Source: Candidatus Omnitrophota bacterium (GTDB lineage Bacteria > Omnitrophota > Gorgyraeia > Duberdicusellales > 4484-171). From it: a stretch of 46,078 nucleotides of DNA. Below, in pieces: positions 12,154-24,886 of the stretch. The translations under genes and the position numbers were made by a program. The notes beneath the pieces are model-generated. The model made no database searches and was not told the DNA's origin. It was given only the letters and a program-made list of their open reading frames with translations. Position 1 is the first letter of the stretch. Every line of letters begins with the position of its first letter. The stretch spans positions 1-46,078 of the forward strand of contig JAGLUN010000004.1 in NCBI GenBank assembly GCA_023134705.1, given 5' to 3'.

Positions 12154-14004
12154 ATGTCAAGGGTTAGAATAGGATTAATAATAAAGTTTATTATATCCGT
12201 CTCTGGAGTGATGATGTTGATTTTAATTTCTTTAGGCGGGTTATTCATTAGAAATCAGGAATTGCAGGTTAAGAGAGTCGTAGAGAATAAAGGCAAATTT
12301 TTGGTTAGAAGTCTGGCTTACAACAGCGAATATGCGATATTAACCGTGAATAAAAAGCTTCTTTCTAAGTTTGTAAAAGGAGTGATAAAAGAGCCGGAAG
12401 TTGTTTATTGTTTAGTTCAGGATATGGAAGGAGAAGTACTTGCTTTTGCCGGGGAAGATAAGGCAGAGAAGATATTTGAAAGGATGGGGAGGAATATTAT
12501 AGGAGAATTGAGCGGGGAAAAGCCATGCTTGCGATATTGTTCTTCTGAAGAAAACGATTCTGTTTGTGATATTAGTAGTCTTATTATAACTCAACGTATA
12601 GACCGGAGAAGAGAAGCGATAGGGTTAATGGGGGATAGTGCCCAGATAAACAGGGATTCGCGAGAGCAGAACTTAGCAATTAAGAATTTAAGCCGGGGGG
12701 AGATAGTTTTTACCCCGTTAGAGAAAGCCGCCGATTTTAATCGGTGGTCATTACCGATTGAAGGTGACAGTGGTATTCCGCCAGAGGCGGATTCGCCTTT
12801 GGCGGAAAAGCCACCGTCACCGCAGACCGTTAGAGAACAAAGTTCTCTAACGGGGTTTACTGAAGAGGAAAGAACCCCAAAGGTAAGGAAAGTAAGGATG
12901 GTAAAAGAAAGTATAGGTGTTGCCCGGGTGGGGGTATCTTTATCCCATATGAATAGACAAATAAATAGGGTCAAAAAAATGGCTATTTTAATAATTTTTC
13001 TAGTTGCTATAATAACTCTACTGCTGTTTGTTTTTCTCGTCAGGCTGATTGTTAATCCGGTTCGACAGTTGTTATTAGGAACCAAAAGGATTGCTGGAGG
13101 AGATTTAAAATACAGGGTAAACGTAAAATCTAATGATGAAATTGGTGATTTAGCTGATTCTTTTAACCAGATGGCCTCGGAATTGGAAAAGTCTAGGGTT
13201 AAGATAGAAGTTTACAGTAGGATCTTAGAGCAAGAGGTAGAGCAAAGAACTGCGCAATTAAAGGAAGCGCAGGTTCAGATAATACAATCCGCTAAAATGG
13301 CGGCTGTCGGACAATTAGGCGCGGGAGTAGCTCACGAATTGAATAATCCGCTTGGCGGTATACTGGGATATTCTCAGTTTATGCTGGAGAAATTTCGTAA
13401 GCCCGGGTTTACCGCGAATGATTTTAAGAATTGTAAGGAATATCTGGAGCTTATTGAGAAAGAAACAATTCGTTGTAAAAAGATAGTAGAAACTCTGCTT
13501 AAATTTTCCAGGAAGTCCCTTTTTGACAAGTTTGATAGTCTGGATATAAACAAGTTATTGGGAGAAACTCTTGCAATTCTCGATCATCAACTTAAACTTG
13601 AAAATATAAAGGTATCGGTTAATTTTAAGTCTGATTTGGCTAATGTAAAAGGCATAGCTAATCCGCTTCAACAGGTATTTACAAATTTGATATTGAATGC
13701 TCAACAGGCTATGCCTAAAGGGGGAGAATTGAAAATAACAGCTGAGAACATAATAGACGAGAAAACTAAACTTGCGGATAAGGTAAAAATAGAATTCACT
13801 GATACTGGATATGGAATCCCCAGAGAGAATCTTTCCCGTCTATTCGACCCCTTTTTTACTACCAAGGAAGTTGAGAAAAGCGTTGGTTTAGGGTTATCGG
13901 TTAGTTATCAGATTGTCCAGGATCATAATGGAACTATTGAGGCCAGGAGTCAGGAAGGTAAAGGAAGCACATTCATCCTGATTTTACCGGTAGCGCATAG
14001 GTGA
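12154..14004 (+). CDS. Membrane sensor histidine kinase (HAMP-HisKA-HATPase)
   Basis: GVAHELNNPLGGILGYSQ, HAMP region after the second TM, GYGIPRENLSRLFDPFFTTK, GLGLSVSYQIV. Confidence 0.93.
   Translation: MSRVRIGLIIKFIISVSGVMMLILISLGGLFIRNQELQVKRVVENKGKFLVRSLAYNSEYAILTVNKKLLSKFVKGVIKEPEVVYCLVQDMEGEVLAFAGEDKAEKIFERMGRNIIGELSGEKPCLRYCSSEENDSVCDISSLIITQRIDRRREAIGLMGDSAQINRDSREQNLAIKNLSRGEIVFTPLEKAADFNRWSLPIEGDSGIPPEADSPLAEKPPSPQTVREQSSLTGFTEEERTPKVRKVRMVKESIGVARVGVSLSHMNRQINRVKKMAILIIFLVAIITLLLFVFLVRLIVNPVRQLLLGTKRIAGGDLKYRVNVKSNDEIGDLADSFNQMASELEKSRVKIEVYSRILEQEVEQRTAQLKEAQVQIIQSAKMAAVGQLGAGVAHELNNPLGGILGYSQFMLEKFRKPGFTANDFKNCKEYLELIEKETIRCKKIVETLLKFSRKSLFDKFDSLDINKLLGETLAILDHQLKLENIKVSVNFKSDLANVKGIANPLQQVFTNLILNAQQAMPKGGELKITAENIIDEKTKLADKVKIEFTDTGYGIPRENLSRLFDPFFTTKEVEKSVGLGLSVSYQIVQDHNGTIEARSQEGKGSTFILILPVAHR
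12711..12858. repeat. 148-bp structured element inside the histidine kinase CDS
   Basis: Alignable end to end with 20851-20998, same length; termini ACCCCGTTAGAGAA / TTCTCTAACGGGGT. Confidence 0.9.
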
Positions 14005-16269: not shown

Positions 16270-16316
16270 TTGCATTTTTTCCTGCCTTGTTTATAATAAT
16301 GTTCAATAGATGAACA
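16270..16316 (+). promoter_or_regulatory. Promoter with operator (P1)
   Basis: TTGCAT-16 nt-TATAAT (16292-16297), then after 2 nt TGTTCAAtagATGAACA (16300-16316). Confidence 0.7.
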
Positions 16317-16328
16317 CGTCTTATTTTT

Positions 16329-16458
16329 AACCGGGAAAATGCCTTTGCAGAGGCATTCCGAAGGATCCACCTCCGGTGGAAAAGCGCTAAACAATCGGGA
16401 AGATAAAGAATTAGAACAAAAGGTAGTTATACAAAAAATACGCGGCATTTCCCCGGTT
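16329..16458. repeat. Long inverted repeat enclosing smaller hairpins
   Basis: AACCGGGAAAATGCC (16329-16343) pairs with GGCATTTCCCCGGTT (16444-16458), one mismatch; a related compact hairpin lies at 16170-16199. Confidence 0.75.
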
Positions 16459-16488
16459 ACCCCGAGCTTTTACCCAAGCGGGGACAGG

Positions 16489-16623
16489 CCAAATTTTAAA
16501 AGGAAAATTTGGGATCGGCCCGTGCGAGGCCTACCTGTTAGGGTAGTGTGAAACCTCCCCGATAGGGGAGTGCGAAGCCTACCCGTCAGGGTATTCGGGC
16601 AAATAATGCCTACTGCATTATTT
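16489..16623. repeat. Hairpin-chain element with three 24-bp hairpin units
   Basis: CCAAATTTT/AAAATTTGG; CTACCT-GTTA-GGGTAG; CTCCCC-GATA-GGGGAG; CTACCC-GTCA-GGGTAT; AAATAATGC-CTACT-GCATTATTT. Confidence 0.9.
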
Positions 16624-16698
16624 ATACGAACGTGCTGTTAAATATGAGTAAGAAGAAGTGAAGAAAAACATTATTTATTTAAGAGGAGGTGCGGATAA

Positions 16699-17565
16699 AT
16701 GAAAGGAATAATTCTCGCTGGCGGAAAAGCCACACGGTTATACCCGATTACAAAGGGAGTATGTAAACAAATGCTTCCGGTATATGATAAGCCTCTTATT
16801 TATTATCCCTTATCTATATTAATGCTTGCCGGCATAAAAGATATCCTGGTAATTTCTACTCCTAAAGATACCCCCAGGTTTAAGGACCTGCTGGGAGACG
16901 GTAAAAATTTGGGAATAAATATCTCCTATGCTGTTCAGGATGAACCTAAAGGAATTGCCGAGGCTTTCATAATCGGAGAGAATTTCATTGGGAAGGATAA
17001 AGTATGTTTAATCTTAGGAGATAATATATTTTATGGCCATAGTTTGGTTGAAATTCTGAAAGAAGCGGCTTACTTGCGGGAAGGAGCAGTCGTTTTTGGC
17101 AGTTTTGTCAGAGATCCCCGGAGATATGGAGTTATTGAGTTTGATAAAGACAATAATGTGGTTACAATCGAAGAAAAACCCGAGGAAGCAAAATCCAACT
17201 GGGTGGTTACCGGACTTTATTTTTATGATAATGCGGTGCTGAATATAGCAAAAAATTTAAAGCCTTCCCAGAGGGGAGAGCTGGAAATAACCGATATTAA
17301 CAATGAATACATAAAAAGAAATAAGTTAAAAGTAAAATTGTTGGGGCGGGGTTATGCCTGGCTTGATACCGGAACACATGATTCTTTAATCGATGCTTCA
17401 ATGTTTATAAAGACAATAGAAGACAGGCAGGGGTTGAAAATCGGCTGTGTCGAAGAGGTTGCTTTTAGAATGGGTTACATCGATAAAAAGCAGTTAGAAA
17501 ATTTATCCGGGGAAATAAACACCGGCTACGGGCGGTATTTAAAGGAGATATGCGAGTATGAATAA
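16699..17565 (+). CDS. rmlA: Glucose-1-phosphate thymidylyltransferase
   Basis: [39 protein letters not shown]. Confidence 0.95.
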
Positions 17566-18394
17566 TAGAATCCTTATTCTGGGTAAAGGTTTCATCGGCT
17601 CAAGGCTAAAGGCCGTTTTTAATTGCAATCTCTCGGGGAAAAAGATTAATTCTTTTAAAGACGCGGAAAAGGAAATTAAAAAATACAATCCCAAAGTTTT
17701 GATTAACTGTATAGGCCATACCGGTAAAAACAATGTGGATGGCTGCGAAATCGATAAAGATAAAACTCTTTTTTCCAACAGCTTCCTCCCGGTTATATTG
17801 GCTGAGGCGGCTTTAAGGCGTAGAATTAAACTTATTCATATCAGCAGCGGCTGTATATATCACTTTAATTATTTTAAAGATAAACCCATAAAAGAGGAAA
17901 AGACTCCGGATTTTTTTGATTTATTCTACAGCCGCAGTAAAATGTATCCTGAAAAAGCTTTAGAGCTTTTAGCCGGTAAATTCGACATTTTAATCCTAAG
18001 AATCAGGATCCCTCTGGATAACCGGCCGCATCCTAAAAATATCCTTAATAAATTGATTTCCTACAAAAAAATTATCGATATTCCCAATTCTCTTACTTAT
18101 ATCCCCGACTTTATAAAAGCTTTAAAACATTTAATGAAAATTAATGCTAAAGGTGTTTATAACGTAGTAAATAAAGGGGGATTAAGATACCCTGAGCTTT
18201 TAGATGTTTACAAAAAATATGTTCCTGGTTTCAAATATAGAGTTATAGATTGCCGGGAACTTAATATGATAAGGACGAATCTGGTTCTATCCACCCGTAA
18301 ACTGGAAAAAACCGGATTCAAACCGCGGAAGATACAGGATATATTGGAAGAGTGTGTAGCTGAATATGTAACTCAAAAAATATCAGTATCGTAA
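17558..18394 (+). CDS. RmlD-like sugar-nucleotide reductase/epimerase
   Basis: [17 protein letters not shown], YxxxK-like [10 protein letters not shown]. Confidence 0.75.
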
Positions 18395-18401
18395 ATTATA
18401 C

Positions 18402-18430
18402 TTGACAATTCTGTATAAATAGTTTAAATT
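18402..18430 (+). promoter_or_regulatory. Candidate promoter of the ATPase gene at 18443, very short leader
   Basis: TTGACA (18402-18407)-17 nt-TAAATT (18425-18430); 15-bp direct repeat TAAATTATACTTRAC at 18392 and 18425. Confidence 0.55.
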
Positions 18431-18442
18431 ATACTTAACGAT

Positions 18443-19744
18443 ATGGTTAAAGAACATATTTACAATTATTGGGATTCAGATTTGCCTTTTGTAGTTAATC
18501 GTAATATAAAAATCGATACAGAAACACATTTAATTAATGATATTGTCGGTGTAAGAAGATCAGGAAAAACCTATTTAATGATGGGGGTAATAAAGGAACT
18601 TTTAAAGAAAACAGACAAAAAAGCAACGATTTATATTAATTTTGAAAGCAGGAAATTATATCCTTTGACTTCGGATTATTTTAACCAGGTCGTTTCTTTT
18701 ATATACGAAGAAGATTTAATGGATATTTATCCCCGGATATATGTTTTTTTTGATGAAGTTCAAAAAATTAAAGGATGGGAACAATTTGTAAGAAGTATCT
18801 ATGACGAGTTTAAGGGAAAGATAAAGATATTTGTTTCCGGTTCAAATACAAATTTATTAAGTAAGGATTATGGGGAGTTACTTACAGGAAGGCATTTAAC
18901 CGTTAATGTTCATCCTTTAAGTTTCAAAGAATTCTTAAGATTCAGGAATTTCAATATAGAGTTTTTAAGCGATAAAAAAATTGTCCAGGTAAAGAAGAAT
19001 CTGAAAGAATATTTGAAATCGGGGGGGTTCCCCGAAATCGTTCTTTCAGAAAAAAAAGATATTTTACTCGACCAGCTTTTTAATGATATTCTTGCCAGAG
19101 ATATTTTAAAAAGAGCTGTCAGAAAAGAACAGATTATGGAAGAGTTCGCGTATTTTCTCGCCAGCAATATCTCTAATTTATTGAGTTTTAATAAGATGGC
19201 GAATTATTTTAAAACGAGAGGCATAAAAGTTTCCGTACCTACAATTGAAAATTATTTTTATTTAATGAAAAACGCTTTTCTTTTTTTTGACAGTTTACTA
19301 TTTTCTTATAAAGTGAAAGACCAATTGCAGTATCCAAGAAAGGTTTATTGTATTGATACGGGGTTAATTAATTTAGCGGGGTTTAAATTCAGCCGGGATA
19401 TCGGGAAACTTTATGAAAATGTGGTAGCTATAGAGCTTTATAGAAGGTTTTCAAGCAGGCCGGGGGTAAAAGTATTTTACTGGAAAAATTCCCGGGAAAA
19501 AGAAGTTGATTTTGTAATAAAAGAAGGTTTGAAAATTATACAGCTGATACAGGTGAGTTGTTTTGAGAAATTTGAACAAATGGCGTCCCGGGAAATAAAA
19601 AGCCTTTTAAGCGCTTCCGAAGAATTAGAATGTAATGATTTGTTAGTGGTTACTTCCGGATGCGAAGGGGAAAAGAAATTTTCTTTTAACAAAAAAAATA
19701 AGATGATAAAATTTATTCCTTTGTGGAAATGGCTGTTAAATTGA
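18443..19744 (+). CDS. AAA ATPase, DUF4143-type C-terminus
   Basis: VGVRRSGKTYLM Walker A, IYVFFDEVQKIKGW Walker B, FYWKNSREKEVDFVIKEG. Confidence 0.85.
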   Translation: MVKEHIYNYWDSDLPFVVNRNIKIDTETHLINDIVGVRRSGKTYLMMGVIKELLKKTDKKATIYINFESRKLYPLTSDYFNQVVSFIYEEDLMDIYPRIYVFFDEVQKIKGWEQFVRSIYDEFKGKIKIFVSGSNTNLLSKDYGELLTGRHLTVNVHPLSFKEFLRFRNFNIEFLSDKKIVQVKKNLKEYLKSGGFPEIVLSEKKDILLDQLFNDILARDILKRAVRKEQIMEEFAYFLASNISNLLSFNKMANYFKTRGIKVSVPTIENYFYLMKNAFLFFDSLLFSYKVKDQLQYPRKVYCIDTGLINLAGFKFSRDIGKLYENVVAIELYRRFSSRPGVKVFYWKNSREKEVDFVIKEGLKIIQLIQVSCFEKFEQMASREIKSLLSASEELECNDLLVVTSGCEGEKKFSFNKKNKMIKFIPLWKWLLN

Positions 19745-20733
19745 TGAAGATGAAGCTATTAGTAACCGGAGGAGCAGGGTTTATCGGCAGTGAATTTGTA
19801 AGGCAGGGTGTTTCGCAGGGATACCGTATCGCGGTTGTTGATAAATTAACTTATGCCGGGGATTTAGAAAGGTTAAAGCAGATAAAAGGAAAGTATAAAT
19901 TCTATAATTCGGATATTTGCCATAAGACCGGGATAGAAGCGATTTTTAAAAAAGAAAAACCTGAAATTGTAGTTAATTTTGCCGCCGAAACTCATGTGGA
20001 TAGAAGCATTCAGGACGCGGCTGCTTTTATAGAAACTAACATTAAAGGCACGCAAATTTTATTGGATATCTCAAAAAAATGGAAAATAAATAAGTTCATT
20101 CATATATCCACAGATGAAATATACGGAGAAATAAGGAAAGGAAAGTTTTCTGAAAATTATCCCTTTCAGCCTAATAGCCCTTATTCAGCTTCCAAAGCAG
20201 CCGCTGATTTATTGATAAAATCCTATATTAGGACATATAAATTACCGGCGATAATCATAAGGCCTTGTAATAATTACGGCCCCTGGCAGTATCCGGAAAA
20301 GTTAATCCCGGTAATAATTTATAAAGCTTTCAAAAACAAAAAAGTTCCTGTTTACGCGAAGGGGTTAAACAGAAGAGAGTGGCTTTATGTTTCAGACTGC
20401 GCGAAAGCTATATTTTTGATTTTGAAAAAAGGCAAAATAGGCGGGATTTATAATATAGGCTCAGGAATTGAGAAAAAGAATATAGATGTGGCCAGGGAAA
20501 TCCTTAAAATTCTCGGCAGACCCAAAAGCCTGATACAGTTTGTAAAAGACCGGCCCGGCCATGATTTCAGGTATGCTTTGGATTCTTCTAAGATAAACAA
20601 ACTTGGCTGGCTCCCGGAAACGGATTTTAAACAAGGGATTAGCCGGACTGTAAATTGGTTCAGACAGAATCAGGCCTGGTTGGAAAGTAAGGTTGGATAT
20701 TTAAGGGATTACTGGAAAAGAGTGTATAAATAG
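19744..20733 (+). CDS. rmlB: dTDP-glucose 4,6-dehydratase
   Basis: MKLLVTGGAGFIGSEFVRQ, AAETHVDRSI, YSASKAAADL; start overlaps the ATPase stop (TGATG). Confidence 0.93.
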   Translation: MKMKLLVTGGAGFIGSEFVRQGVSQGYRIAVVDKLTYAGDLERLKQIKGKYKFYNSDICHKTGIEAIFKKEKPEIVVNFAAETHVDRSIQDAAAFIETNIKGTQILLDISKKWKINKFIHISTDEIYGEIRKGKFSENYPFQPNSPYSASKAAADLLIKSYIRTYKLPAIIIRPCNNYGPWQYPEKLIPVIIYKAFKNKKVPVYAKGLNRREWLYVSDCAKAIFLILKKGKIGGIYNIGSGIEKKNIDVAREILKILGRPKSLIQFVKDRPGHDFRYALDSSKINKLGWLPETDFKQGISRTVNWFRQNQAWLESKVGYLRDYWKRVYK

Positions 20734-20762
20734 CGAGCCCGGATAAAATAAAAGCAAATATA

Positions 20763-20810
20763 TTGACAAAGTGATCCGGCTGATTATAATATTGTTCAAC
20801 CTTTGAACAA
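20763..20810 (+). promoter_or_regulatory. Promoter with operator (P2)
   Basis: TTGACA-16 nt-TATAAT (20785-20790), then after 2 nt TGTTCAAcctTTGAACA (20793-20809). Confidence 0.82.
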
Positions 20811-20850
20811 CCAGCACTTAAAGGAATCAAGAAACATCTTGGCATTTTTT

Positions 20851-20998
20851 TACCCCGTTAGAGAAAGCCGCCGATTTTAATCGACGGTCATTACCGCTTG
20901 AGGCTAACGGTGGTTTCCCTCCATAGTCGGGTCCGCCTTTGGCGGAAAAGCCACTGTTAGCGCAGACCGTTAGAGAACGTAGTTCTCTAACGGGGTTT
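20851..20998. repeat. 148-bp structured element, intergenic copy
   Basis: Same termini and length as 12711-12858; arms GCTAACgGTGG / CCACtGTTAGC and CCGTTAGAGAAC-GTA-GTTCTCTAACGG. Confidence 0.9.
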
Positions 20999-21064
20999 GC
21001 TTTTTGAATTTTGTTTAATACTAATATAAGCTTTTGAACTTGAGGGATTTTTTAATTTTACAGC

Positions 21065-21436
21065 ATGCGAAAAGAAAAGATAAATGATTTTAAAGAAAAA
21101 GCAATTCGGATATTAGATAACTATTTAGGAAATAACTACCTTTTATTTGTTTTTGGTTCTTGTGTAAAAGGAGGAACCCTTAGGAGTTCCGATATAGATT
21201 TAGCGGTTTATCGAAAAGAAACAATACCCGGCTGTATAATGGTTCAGGCGAAAGAGGCATTAGAGGAAGGGGCGGGAACTTTAAGGGATATAGATCTTAT
21301 AAATCTTACTGATAAAAATGTAGGCGTTAATTTATTGCAAGATATATTAGAGGAGGGTGTAATATGGAAAGAAGCGAGAAGTTCAAAAGAACTTTTGAAA
21401 AATTTGAAAAAGCGCTTAATAAATTCCGGGAAATAA
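21065..21436 (+). CDS. mntA: MNT-type minimal nucleotidyltransferase
   Basis: FGSCVKGGTLRSSDIDLAVY (GSx10SDxDL-like). Confidence 0.85.
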   Translation: MRKEKINDFKEKAIRILDNYLGNNYLLFVFGSCVKGGTLRSSDIDLAVYRKETIPGCIMVQAKEALEEGAGTLRDIDLINLTDKNVGVNLLQDILEEGVIWKEARSSKELLKNLKKRLINSGK

Positions 21437-21795
21437 TAGAATCTCAGCATTTATTTGATTTTTTAAGCCAGGAGTTAATTGTTGAGGTGGCTACTAAACG
21501 GTTTGAATATACTTTTGAGAGTATGTGGAAAGTTTTAAAGGAATATTTAAGGGAAGAAGGCCTTGATTGTCCCACACCTTTGAAATGTTTTAAAGAAGCT
21601 TTTAAGACAGGTATTATAAGTGAAAGCGATGAGTCGATATTCTTAGAGATGGTAGAGAAAAGAAATCTAATTGTTCACATTTATGATTTTAAAGCCGCTA
21701 AGGCGATTTATGAATTTATAAAACGTAAAGAACTGGTTTCAGCAATAAAAAACGTTTACGACAAACTTAAAGCCGAGAGCGGAACAAATTCCTAA
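21364..21795 (+). CDS. hepT: HepT-like HEPN toxin
   Basis: RNLIVHIYDF (RX4HxY) and helical HEPN-like sequence. Confidence 0.83.
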   Translation: MERSEKFKRTFEKFEKALNKFREIIESQHLFDFLSQELIVEVATKRFEYTFESMWKVLKEYLREEGLDCPTPLKCFKEAFKTGIISESDESIFLEMVEKRNLIVHIYDFKAAKAIYEFIKRKELVSAIKNVYDKLKAESGTNS

Positions 21796-21875
21796 ATTTT
21801 TAGGATATAGCAGACGTTTTTGTTCAGAAGTACAATCGCAATCATATGTCGCATCAGAACACAGAACAGTTCGTT

Positions 21876-21931
21876 TTACGTTCTACGTTCTACGTTCTAC
21901 GTAGGACATAGAACTATGGACTTAGGACTTT
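21876..21931. repeat. 7-bp tract (GTTCTAC units, then diverged units)
   Basis: tacgttc tacgttc tacgttc tacgtag gacatag aactatg gacttag gactt. Confidence 0.9.
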
Positions 21932-22002
21932 AATAAACAATGAAAACCACACAATATATACAGGACATTTTAAATAATTTACACAAAATGAACACTACTT
22001 TC

Positions 22003-22031
22003 TTGACTTTTTTACACGTTTTTGTAATAAT
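22003..22031 (+). promoter_or_regulatory. Candidate leaderless promoter of the ATPase gene at 22037
   Basis: TTGACT-16 nt-TAATAA immediately before ATG; palindrome TTACA-cgtttt-TGTAA in the spacer. Confidence 0.5.
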
Positions 22032-22036
22032 AAGAT

Positions 22037-23365
22037 ATGAAAAGAGACATATATAAACAATTGCTTGAGTGGAAAGATGATCCCTTTCGGAAACCTCTAA
22101 TTTTAAAAGGGGCTCGTCAGACAGGGAAAACATATATTTTAAAAGAATTCGGGAGAAAAGAATTTGACCATACGGCGTATTTTAATTTTGAAGAAGAGCC
22201 GGACCTGAAATCCTTTTTTAAAGATAGCCTTAATCCACGGAAAATTCTTGAAAAATTATCAATTTATTGTGGAAAAACGATAAAGCCGGAAAAAACTCTT
22301 ATTTTTTTTGATGAAATCCAGGAGTCGCCGAAAGCACTAACATCTCTTAAATATTTCAACGAATTGGATGAAAAATACTGTGTTGTTTCCGCGGGGTCTC
22401 TGCTTGGAATTAAAGTTGGGGTATCCGCTCCATTTCCCACAGGTAAAGTGACTTTTTTAAAGTTATATCCTTTTTCGTTCGGGGAATTTCTCGATGGATT
22501 GGGTAAAGAAAAATTTCGAAAGCTGCTCGATAATATATCAGAGCTGAAGCCGGTCGATGAGGTCTTTCATAAAGAATTTATAAAAGATCTAAAACTATAT
22601 TTTTATGTTGGAGGAATGCCGGAAGCAATAAAGCGGTATAACGCTGATAAAGACTTGTCCAAAGTCAGAAAAATCCATAAAGATATACTTTATGGGTATG
22701 AAAATGATTTTAGAAAACATACCGGTAAACCCGAATCAATTAAACTTACCAACACCTGGCGTGTTATACCCGTTCAGTTGGCAAAGGAAAATAAGAAATT
22801 CAAATATTCCGAAGTTTCAAAATATGCCAGAGCGAGGGAATATAACGAGATAATTATTTGGCTTGAAGACGCGGGATTAGTTTATAAATCTTACAATATT
22901 GAAGTACCGAAATTACCGTTAAGCGGATATAAGAAGGAAAATATTTTTAAGCTATTCCTGCTTGATATAGGTTTGCTTGGAGCTATGTTGGATTTGTCGT
23001 CTAAAACCATAATTGAAGGGAATTCTTTATTCTCGGAATATAATGGAGCTTATACGGAGAATTTCGTCGCGGAGGAATTGATTGCCTGCGGATTCAGCGA
23101 ACTTTATTATTGGACGAGCGCGAGAACGGCGGAAGTTGATTTTGTGCTTTCACGCGATGAAAACATTTATCCTCTTGAAGTGAAAGCCGGAATCAGCAGA
23201 CAGAAAAAAAGTTTAAAAGTATACGGCCAAAAGTATAAAAATTCTATTCTCTCCATGGCTACTGTGAGAAATTTTAAACATGACGGAAAAATTCACAATT
23301 ATCCGTTATATGCTGTTAGCAGGTTTCCCATTAGCAGTTTCGCGAAGTATCAAAAAACGGCTTAG
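22037..23365 (+). CDS. AAA ATPase, DUF4143-type C-terminus
   Basis: LKGARQTGKTYILKEFG Walker A, LIFFDEIQESPKALTSLKYF, YYWTSARTAEVDFVLS. Confidence 0.88.
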   Translation: MKRDIYKQLLEWKDDPFRKPLILKGARQTGKTYILKEFGRKEFDHTAYFNFEEEPDLKSFFKDSLNPRKILEKLSIYCGKTIKPEKTLIFFDEIQESPKALTSLKYFNELDEKYCVVSAGSLLGIKVGVSAPFPTGKVTFLKLYPFSFGEFLDGLGKEKFRKLLDNISELKPVDEVFHKEFIKDLKLYFYVGGMPEAIKRYNADKDLSKVRKIHKDILYGYENDFRKHTGKPESIKLTNTWRVIPVQLAKENKKFKYSEVSKYARAREYNEIIIWLEDAGLVYKSYNIEVPKLPLSGYKKENIFKLFLLDIGLLGAMLDLSSKTIIEGNSLFSEYNGAYTENFVAEELIACGFSELYYWTSARTAEVDFVLSRDENIYPLEVKAGISRQKKSLKVYGQKYKNSILSMATVRNFKHDGKIHNYPLYAVSRFPISSFAKYQKTA

Positions 23366-23382
23366 GGCTTAGGGTAATTATC

Positions 23383-23430
23383 TTGACATACGCAAGGCAA
23401 GAAGTTATAATATTGTTCAACCTTTGAACA
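23383..23430 (+). promoter_or_regulatory. Promoter with operator (P3)
   Basis: TTGACA-17 nt-TATAAT (23406-23411), then after 2 nt TGTTCAAcctTTGAACA (23414-23430). Confidence 0.85.
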
Positions 23431-23473: not shown

Positions 23474-23499
23474 ACATAGAACGTAGAACGTAGAACCCT
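23474..23499. repeat. 7-bp tract (GAACGTA), inverted relative to 21876-21903
   Basis: acatagaacgtagaacgtagaac. Confidence 0.85.
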
Positions 23500-23506
23500 A
23501 TCCCCC

Positions 23507-23860
23507 ATGAACGAACATCTTATAAAAGAAGACATCTTCAATATCCTGCGCATCCTGTCCTCGAATAATGATCTTACCCAGCGAGATTTATCCAGCCATT
23601 TAGGTATTTCTTTAGGTAAAACCAATTACCTTTTGCAATCACTCGCACAAAGAGGGCTTATAAAAATAAAATGTTTTAGCCGGCGAAAGCAGAAGTTAAA
23701 AAGAGTAAAGTACATCCTAACCAAAAAAGGCTTAGAAGACAAACTGCGGCTTACTTATTATTTCCTGAGAAGAAAAGAAAAAGAGTATCTGGAGTTGAAG
23801 AAAGAGATAGAGAATGATTCCTGTCTTGTTAAGGTTGACTATCAGGAAGTGAAATTATAA
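23507..23860 (+). CDS. EPS-associated MarR-family regulator
   Basis: ILRILSSNNDLTQRDLSSHLGISLGKTNYLLQSLAQRGLIKIK wHTH plus C-terminal coiled coil. Confidence 0.85.
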   Translation: MNEHLIKEDIFNILRILSSNNDLTQRDLSSHLGISLGKTNYLLQSLAQRGLIKIKCFSRRKQKLKRVKYILTKKGLEDKLRLTYYFLRRKEKEYLELKKEIENDSCLVKVDYQEVKL

Positions 23861-23899: not shown

Positions 23900-24886
23900 A
23901 TGTTCAATAATAAGGTTGTTTTGGTTACCGGTGGCACAGGTTCTTTTGGAAAAAAATTTACTGAAATTGTATTTAAAAACTATAAGGTTGAAAAACTTAT
24001 TATTTTAAGCCGGGATGAATATAAACAATATGAAATGAATAAGGTATTTCCCGAAGACAAATATCCTGTTCGCTACTTTCTGGGGGATGTGAGAGACAGA
24101 TACAGACTTTGCAGGGCTTTTGAAGGGGTAGATTATGTTATTCACGCGGCTGCATTAAAACAGGTTCCTGCTTTGGAATATAATCCCACGGAAGCGGTAA
24201 AAACCAATGTAGTAGGCGCGGATAACATTGTTGACGCGGCAATTGACGCCGACGTAAAAAAAGTTATTGCTTTATCTACCGATAAGGCGGTTAACCCTAT
24301 AAATTTGTATGGCGCGACAAAGTTGGTAGCGGAAAAGATATTTATTGCCGCTAATGCTTATGGAGGGGCAAAAGTTAAATTTTCAGTGGTAAGATATGGT
24401 AATGTTGTTGGTTCCCGGGGAAGTGTAATCCCTTTTTTCCTGAGCCTCAAAAAGCAGGGGATAAAAGAATTCCCTATAACCGATAAAAAAATGACCCGTT
24501 TTTGGATGACTTTAGAACAAAGCGTGGATTTAGTAATAAAGGCATTAGATAAAGCAGAAGGGGCAGAAGTATTCATTCCTGAAATTCCTTCGATGAAAAT
24601 TACAGATTTGGCAAAAGCGATTGAACCGGATTGTAAATTTAAAATTATTGGTATAAGGCCGGGAGAGAAAGTGAATGAAGTTTTAATCTCTGAAGACGAA
24701 GCAAAAAACGTTAAGATAGTTGATGGGATTTATGTTATTTTGCCTCAGTTTTTTGAACCTAAAGCTATCCATAAAAAGTACGATAAATTCCTTTCTGTTC
24801 CCGAAGGTTTCGTATATAGAAGCGACAAGAATGATAAATGGCTTAAACTGGAAGAATTGCAGGAGATGCTTAAGAAATTAGAATAG
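23900..24886 (+). CDS. pseB: UDP-GlcNAc 4,6-dehydratase (inverting)
   Basis: MFNNKVVLVTGGTGSFGKKFTEIVFKNY, HAAALKQVPALEYNPTEAVKTNV. Confidence 0.93.
   Translation: MFNNKVVLVTGGTGSFGKKFTEIVFKNYKVEKLIILSRDEYKQYEMNKVFPEDKYPVRYFLGDVRDRYRLCRAFEGVDYVIHAAALKQVPALEYNPTEAVKTNVVGADNIVDAAIDADVKKVIALSTDKAVNPINLYGATKLVAEKIFIAANAYGGAKVKFSVVRYGNVVGSRGSVIPFFLSLKKQGIKEFPITDKKMTRFWMTLEQSVDLVIKALDKAEGAEVFIPEIPSMKITDLAKAIEPDCKFKIIGIRPGEKVNEVLISEDEAKNVKIVDGIYVILPQFFEPKAIHKKYDKFLSVPEGFVYRSDKNDKWLKLEELQEMLKKLE

Follow-up and report, generated by a model that had tools for sequence, protein, structure and literature searches.

A MarR_EPS-type regulator and the operator shared by three promoters of an Omnitrophota glycan locus

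Comparison with related genomes makes it highly probable that the gene at 23507 in a 46,078-nucleotide stretch of DNA from a Candidatus Omnitrophota bacterium (contig JAGLUN010000004.1; hereafter the window) encodes a regulator of the MarR_EPS family that recognises a palindromic operator, represses its own promoter and very likely also represses a second promoter, P1, in the same surface-glycan locus. The operator, TGTTCANNNNNTGAACA, starts at 16300, 20793 and 23414, each time behind a sigma70-like promoter (P1, P2 and P3). Scores labelled R1 refer to a sequence-only model of promoter plus operator, which was built from the regulator promoters of 23 relatives and includes no site of the window. 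The central features, all on the forward strand, are as follows (nt, nucleotides).

16270–16297, forward: P1 promoter, TTGCAT (16270–16275), 16-nt spacer, TATAAT (16292–16297), then AA; read directly from the sequence
16300–16316, forward: P1 operator TGTTCAATAGATGAACA, perfect core; R1 match 16286–16319, 26.6 bits
20763–20790, forward: P2 promoter, TTGACA (20763–20768), N16, TATAAT (20785–20790), then AT
20793–20809, forward: P2 operator TGTTCAACCTTTGAACA; R1 30.3 bits, E 5.4e-7
23383–23411, forward: P3 promoter, TTGACA (23383–23388), N17, TATAAT (23406–23411), then AT
23414–23430, forward: P3 operator TGTTCAACCTTTGAACA; R1 30.3 bits, E 5.7e-7
23507–23860, forward: MarR_EPS regulator, 117 residues, N-terminus MNEH; TIGR04176 104.2 bits, cut-off 88

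A sequence-only reading of this DNA had reported TATAAT-containing sigma70-like boxes with an operator 2 nt further on, and exactly this gap was found at all three positions. P2 and P3 alone among the promoter-like sites of the region show 12/12 consensus bases. The same reading had called the operator perfect in P2 and P3 and mismatched once in P1; the mismatch to its pattern is real, but the true core is TGTTCA-N5-TGAACA, and this core is perfect in P1, the deviating base lying outside it. A search of the whole 1.41-Mb, 94-contig genome found this core three times, at P1, P2 and P3, so that the operator is not spread over unrelated genes. R1 likewise ranked these three sites first in the genome, the next one reaching 13.4 bits. 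A fourth site with at most one mismatch to the earlier pattern (C53:8606) was rejected because its sequence reads, by eye, as a tRNA-Gly gene. We also dropped the view of P1 as what remains of a lost regulator start (ATAGATGAACAC resembling ATGGATGAACAC), since the operator itself accounts for the likeness. Within the window alone, a scan allowing three mismatches was uninformative (six sites found, 3.9 expected); it is the near-perfect sites, compared with those of other genomes, that provide the evidence.

The 23507 product is the only protein of this genome that scores over the TIGR04176 cut-off. Domain matches (PF13412, PF12802, PF01047), AlphaFold2 and Foldseek agree on a winged helix-turn-helix (HTH) fold. 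The AlphaFold2 monomer model consists of the winged helix and one long C-terminal helix of 44 residues (73–116; predicted local distance difference test score 87.9), and its matches among PDB structures are MarR proteins, the best being PcaV, HcaR and MepR with template modelling (TM) scores of about 0.6. Residues S35, G37, K38 and N40 of the recognition helix are invariant. As expected for MarR_EPS, the gene lies in a glycan cluster, with pseB next to it and an aminotransferase gene, two NeuB genes, a CMP-transferase gene and rmlA/rmlB. Our literature search found no published operator or regulon for MarR_EPS (TIGR04176); one MarR_EPS-type gene is up-regulated under salt, with nothing more reported on it (PMC10599003).

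Among 97 relatives, 34 possess the family, and their regulator promoters recurrently show the arrangement TTGACA-N16-18-TATAAT-N1-3-TGTTCAATGnnTGAACA. R1 sites of at least 22 bits occur in 28/34 genomes with the regulator and in 2/63 without it (Fisher 2.7e-16). One of these two (G038) is cut by a contig end; the other (G040) is a promoter in a sugar-gene cluster, in a genome that yielded no regulator. On the scale of the class (384 genomes), the exact palindrome was present in 108/149 genomes with the regulator and 14/235 without (p 1.4e-44), while the reversed-sequence control hit only 9 class genomes. Thirty-nine of the 48 tabulated class sites lie upstream of the regulator gene, mostly by 5–80 nt. 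Palindromes in G009, G020 (contig C16) and G024, within coding sequence, and an intergenic one in G094 lack a promoter and were judged to be chance occurrences. Operators in genomes lacking the regulator had been named in advance as an argument against the assignment, and the counts turned out in its favour; the proposed scan upstream of 23507 homologues likewise located the site on the promoters of nearly all those within the phylum and of many outside it.

The association extends beyond Omnitrophota. A scan of GTDB genomes with the peptide motif [IVF]SLGK[TVA]NYL yielded 80 named MarR_EPS loci, mostly from Omnitrophota and otherwise from deltaproteobacteria, Burkholderiales, Methylococcales, SAR86, Bacteroidota, Leptospiraceae and others. 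A perfect GTTCA-N5-TGAAC, at most 220 nt upstream or at the start of the gene, was found in 51/58 distinct Omnitrophota loci and 14/21 loci of other phyla, as against at most one and zero, respectively, for each of 118 permuted inverted repeats. The spacer of five is almost exclusive; the only other, four, occurs in four non-Omnitrophota loci. In ten non-Omnitrophota genomes (32 Mb), 11 of 12 site occurrences lie directly upstream of MarR_EPS, the twelfth being located 2.5 kb downstream in a Methylococcus locus, behind promoter-like sequence. Cultivable bacteria that carry the family include Methylococcus capsulatus and Ramlibacter lithotrophicus. These data also bear on the possibility that a different transcription factor binds the site and that MarR_EPS is merely one of its targets. 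Co-occurrence alone cannot name the binder; however, MarR_EPS recurs beside the site across phyla, usually at a single site in each genome, and few genomes carry the palindrome without it, so that we regard another binder as improbable. Together with the position of the palindrome over the regulator's own promoter, at P3 as in many other genomes and as typical of the MarR superfamily, comparison across genomes and phyla supports the assignment of the operator to the MarR_EPS family well, and autorepression is likely.

Several observations weigh against this assignment or its extension to P1 and P2. The exact palindrome is absent from 41/149 regulator-bearing class genomes, and the regulators of two loci (L025, L043) have no recognisable site upstream. 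The motif scan is biased towards regulators whose recognition helix is canonical, and the named loci partly overlap the class genomes, which makes the two tests non-independent. Most genomes have a single site, on the regulator itself and usually with the start codon inside; a three-site locus is unusual, and it is the sequence match that marks P1 and P2 as extra sites. The leaders of P1 and P2 consist mostly of interspersed repeats, and in the window no clear Shine-Dalgarno sequence follows the leader of the regulator gene.

The position of the operator relative to the promoter is fixed. The gap between the −10 box and the operator measures 1–3 nt in 48/55 scored Omnitrophota sites, and in 46/51 Omnitrophota loci with a site the ATG of the regulator lies in frame within the operator, explaining the M-x-E-H or M-x-E-Q N-termini of the proteins. 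For these homologues, the geometry predicts a leaderless, self-repressed mRNA with a 5′ leader of 0–3 nt, given a normal start point. This layout is probably the ancestral one. The gene of the window lacks the overlap: the last base of the operator lies 76 nt before the ATG, and the start codon keeps MNEH together with an apparent decayed right half (ATGAACGAACA). A similar displacement was seen at L085. Short tandem runs of the (GTAGAAC) type occur just before the regulator start (23479–23498) and near the end of the HepT-like gene (21876–21935).

The overlap raises the question of whether conservation might reflect the N-terminal residues and not an operator, given that the right half encodes them in those 46 loci. 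This we consider hardly credible: the left half is non-coding yet invariant, both halves are kept away from start codons (P1–P3, L085, L087, L088 and other phyla), and regulators without the overlap start differently (MTPAEQ...). Likewise, since the palindrome stands where the transcripts are predicted to begin and overlaps the start codon in most relatives, it could act as an RNA stem-loop governing stability or translation. However, a transcript starting 7–8 nt after the −10 box would leave most of the left arm untranscribed, the arms are invariant and show no covariation, and an Rfam search of the window found no RNA family; a role as RNA is thus very improbable.

From the sites, their uniqueness, their association with the regulator across genomes and the fixed geometry, we infer the following mechanism. 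MarR superfamily repressors pair through their N- and C-terminal helices, and a MarR_EPS dimer would recognise YGTTCA-N5-TGAACR. Beginning 1–3 nt past the −10 box, the operator would cover the transcription start, so that a bound dimer would block RNA polymerase and repress. The 23507 protein would in this way repress P3 and so the regulator together with pseB and the nonulosonate genes; it would very likely act in the same manner on P1 with rmlA and the dTDP-sugar genes. P2, which carries an operator equal to that of P3, should be bound and repressed as well; whether its transcript reaches mntA and hepT is uncertain. Where the ATG lies in the operator, as in the usual layout, the mRNA would be leaderless and self-limiting. 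Repression might be released by a signal, for which a sugar nucleotide or a glycan intermediate is a plausible candidate. A sugar nucleotide is suggested because divergent relatives, some with the same operator, carry Rossmann-like and, in one case, nucleotidyltransferase-like domains. Divergent MarR_EPS-like proteins at L043, L044 and L045 (genomes G064, G088 and G083) extend into a Rossmann-like domain (sequence reading, with a Pfam scan for L043); in the L045 protein, a domain resembling sugar-nucleotidyltransferases (sugar-1-phosphate) follows it, again by sequence reading. The same operator precedes the genes at L044 and L045.

The sequence-only reading had also proposed that the regulator controls the glycan locus. 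P1 and P3 precede the following forward-strand features.

16327–16623, forward: interspersed repeat that makes up the larger part of the P1 leader; tens of copies across the genome, from partial to near-full length
16699–17565, forward: rmlA, glucose-1-phosphate thymidylyltransferase, first gene after P1; TIGR01207 468.7 bits
17558–18394, forward: RmlD-like reductase (PF04321)
18443–19744, forward: AAA_14/DUF4143 ATPase with its own operator-less promoter-like site (18402–18430)
19723–20733, forward: rmlB-like sugar-nucleotide dehydratase (PF16363/PF01370)
23900–24886, forward: pseB, UDP-GlcNAc 4,6-dehydratase, next after the regulator; TIGR03589 480 bits

P3 heads the regulator, pseB, an aminotransferase gene and further nonulosonate-type genes. 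For P1, a parallel is provided by the Omnitrophota locus L110, where operator, rmlA, rmlB and regulator follow in the same order. The positions of P3 and P1 and the order at L110 support the proposal, and control of the glycan operons by the 23507 product is likely on these grounds.

The situation is different for the genes behind P2, which the earlier reading had placed under joint control with the glycan locus.

20848–21003, forward: interspersed repeat of about 155 bp with terminal inverted repeats CCCCGTTAGAGAA...TTCTCTAACGGGG; multiple copies, 80–97% identity
21065–21436, forward: MntA-like nucleotidyltransferase; NF047752 41 bits, below the curated cut-off of 60; PF18765
21364–21795, forward: HepT-like partner of the HI0074 family; TIGR01987 79.5 bits, over cut-off
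22037–23365, forward: AAA_14/DUF4143 ATPase with its own operator-less promoter-like site (22003–22031)

A type VII MntA/HepT system calls for both partners to score over cut-off; here MntA reaches 41 and HepT_toxin 31, against 60 in each case, and the genes are therefore filed merely as an MntA/HepT-like pair. One could assume a single regulon in which glycan synthesis and a MntA/HepT toxin-antitoxin are deliberately co-expressed, with P2 as the promoter of the pair. Indeed, P2 combines full consensus boxes with a perfect operator, mntA and hepT follow it on its strand with no other gene in between, and no stronger promoter was found in the 60 bases before mntA. Against co-expression, the 155-bp repeat separates P2 from mntA and contains a terminator-like hairpin (20967–20993; leader fold z −3.9). 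Moreover, MntA was found in none of the 80 MarR_EPS loci and HepT in one (a Rubrivivax locus), and the varied genes that relatives have between operator and regulator (HipA/HTH, acetyltransferase, Wzz, methyltransferase) look like passing cargo. We thus consider a purposeful joint regulon unlikely. Ownership of the site by the 23507 product stood up to comparison; joint control of the MntA/HepT pair is supported by position and not beyond it. Given the intervening repeat and hairpin, the rarity of the pair at other loci and the varied genes in relatives, MntA/HepT is probably cargo, as are probably the two DUF4143 ATPases with their own promoter-like sites.

Similar arrangements were seen elsewhere. 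Relatives of the DUF4143 ATPases occur at further MarR_EPS loci (L090, L094, L103, L105, L114, L127 and L136), the 22037 ATPase being 76% identical to the protein at L090. At L121 (−1486 to 0 of the regulator), the operator and the first 50 codons of the regulator are duplicated around a methyltransferase-like gene, and at L117 (−1949 to 0) two identical operators flank HipA-like and HTH genes; both arrangements look like an insertion of cargo accompanied by a duplication. P2 and P3 have 26 identical bases in common and differ outside them; they, too, might have arisen by duplication around cargo, as apparently in L121 and L117. A further copy of the 155-bp repeat (12707–12861) lies in frame in a sensor histidine kinase gene (12154–14004), adding about 52 residues.

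The regulator is of a known kind. The MarR_EPS family (TIGR04176) is known by annotation, and the 23507 product resembles it in its score over cut-off and its polysaccharide locus. With the autorepressors MarR, MepR, PcaV and HcaR it shares the winged-helix fold, a palindrome over the promoter and, as predicted here, autoregulation; in contrast to these (TM about 0.6), MarR_EPS is shorter, has one long C-terminal helix in the model and keeps one nearly invariant operator across phyla. Phage lambda cI at PRM is an autoregulator read from a leaderless mRNA. Promoter geometry suggests a comparable situation in most Omnitrophota homologues, where the start codon would coincide with the transcription start or adjoin it; unlike in lambda, the start codon and the codons for residues 3–4 are part of the MarR_EPS operator, an overlap absent in the gene of the window. 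The literature searched does not seem to describe the operator, how constant it is across phyla, or its overlap with the start codon.

Tentatively, and with somewhat more doubt than confidence, we propose that MarR_EPS is a phylum-crossing surface-glycan switch, usually with one site per genome, and that it senses a sugar nucleotide. Transcription and translation would then begin on the same stretch of about 17 bp to which the repressor binds, the message being leaderless, and the operator would set the first residues of the protein. For MarR_EPS, annotated in many genomes, the present analysis provides a first defined and directly testable operator, a fixed promoter geometry and a target prediction. 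As the site is nearly unique per genome, sequence alone would suffice to read the regulon, including that of uncultured phyla. The start-codon-in-operator layout would be a clear example of an N-terminus shaped by a binding site in the DNA.

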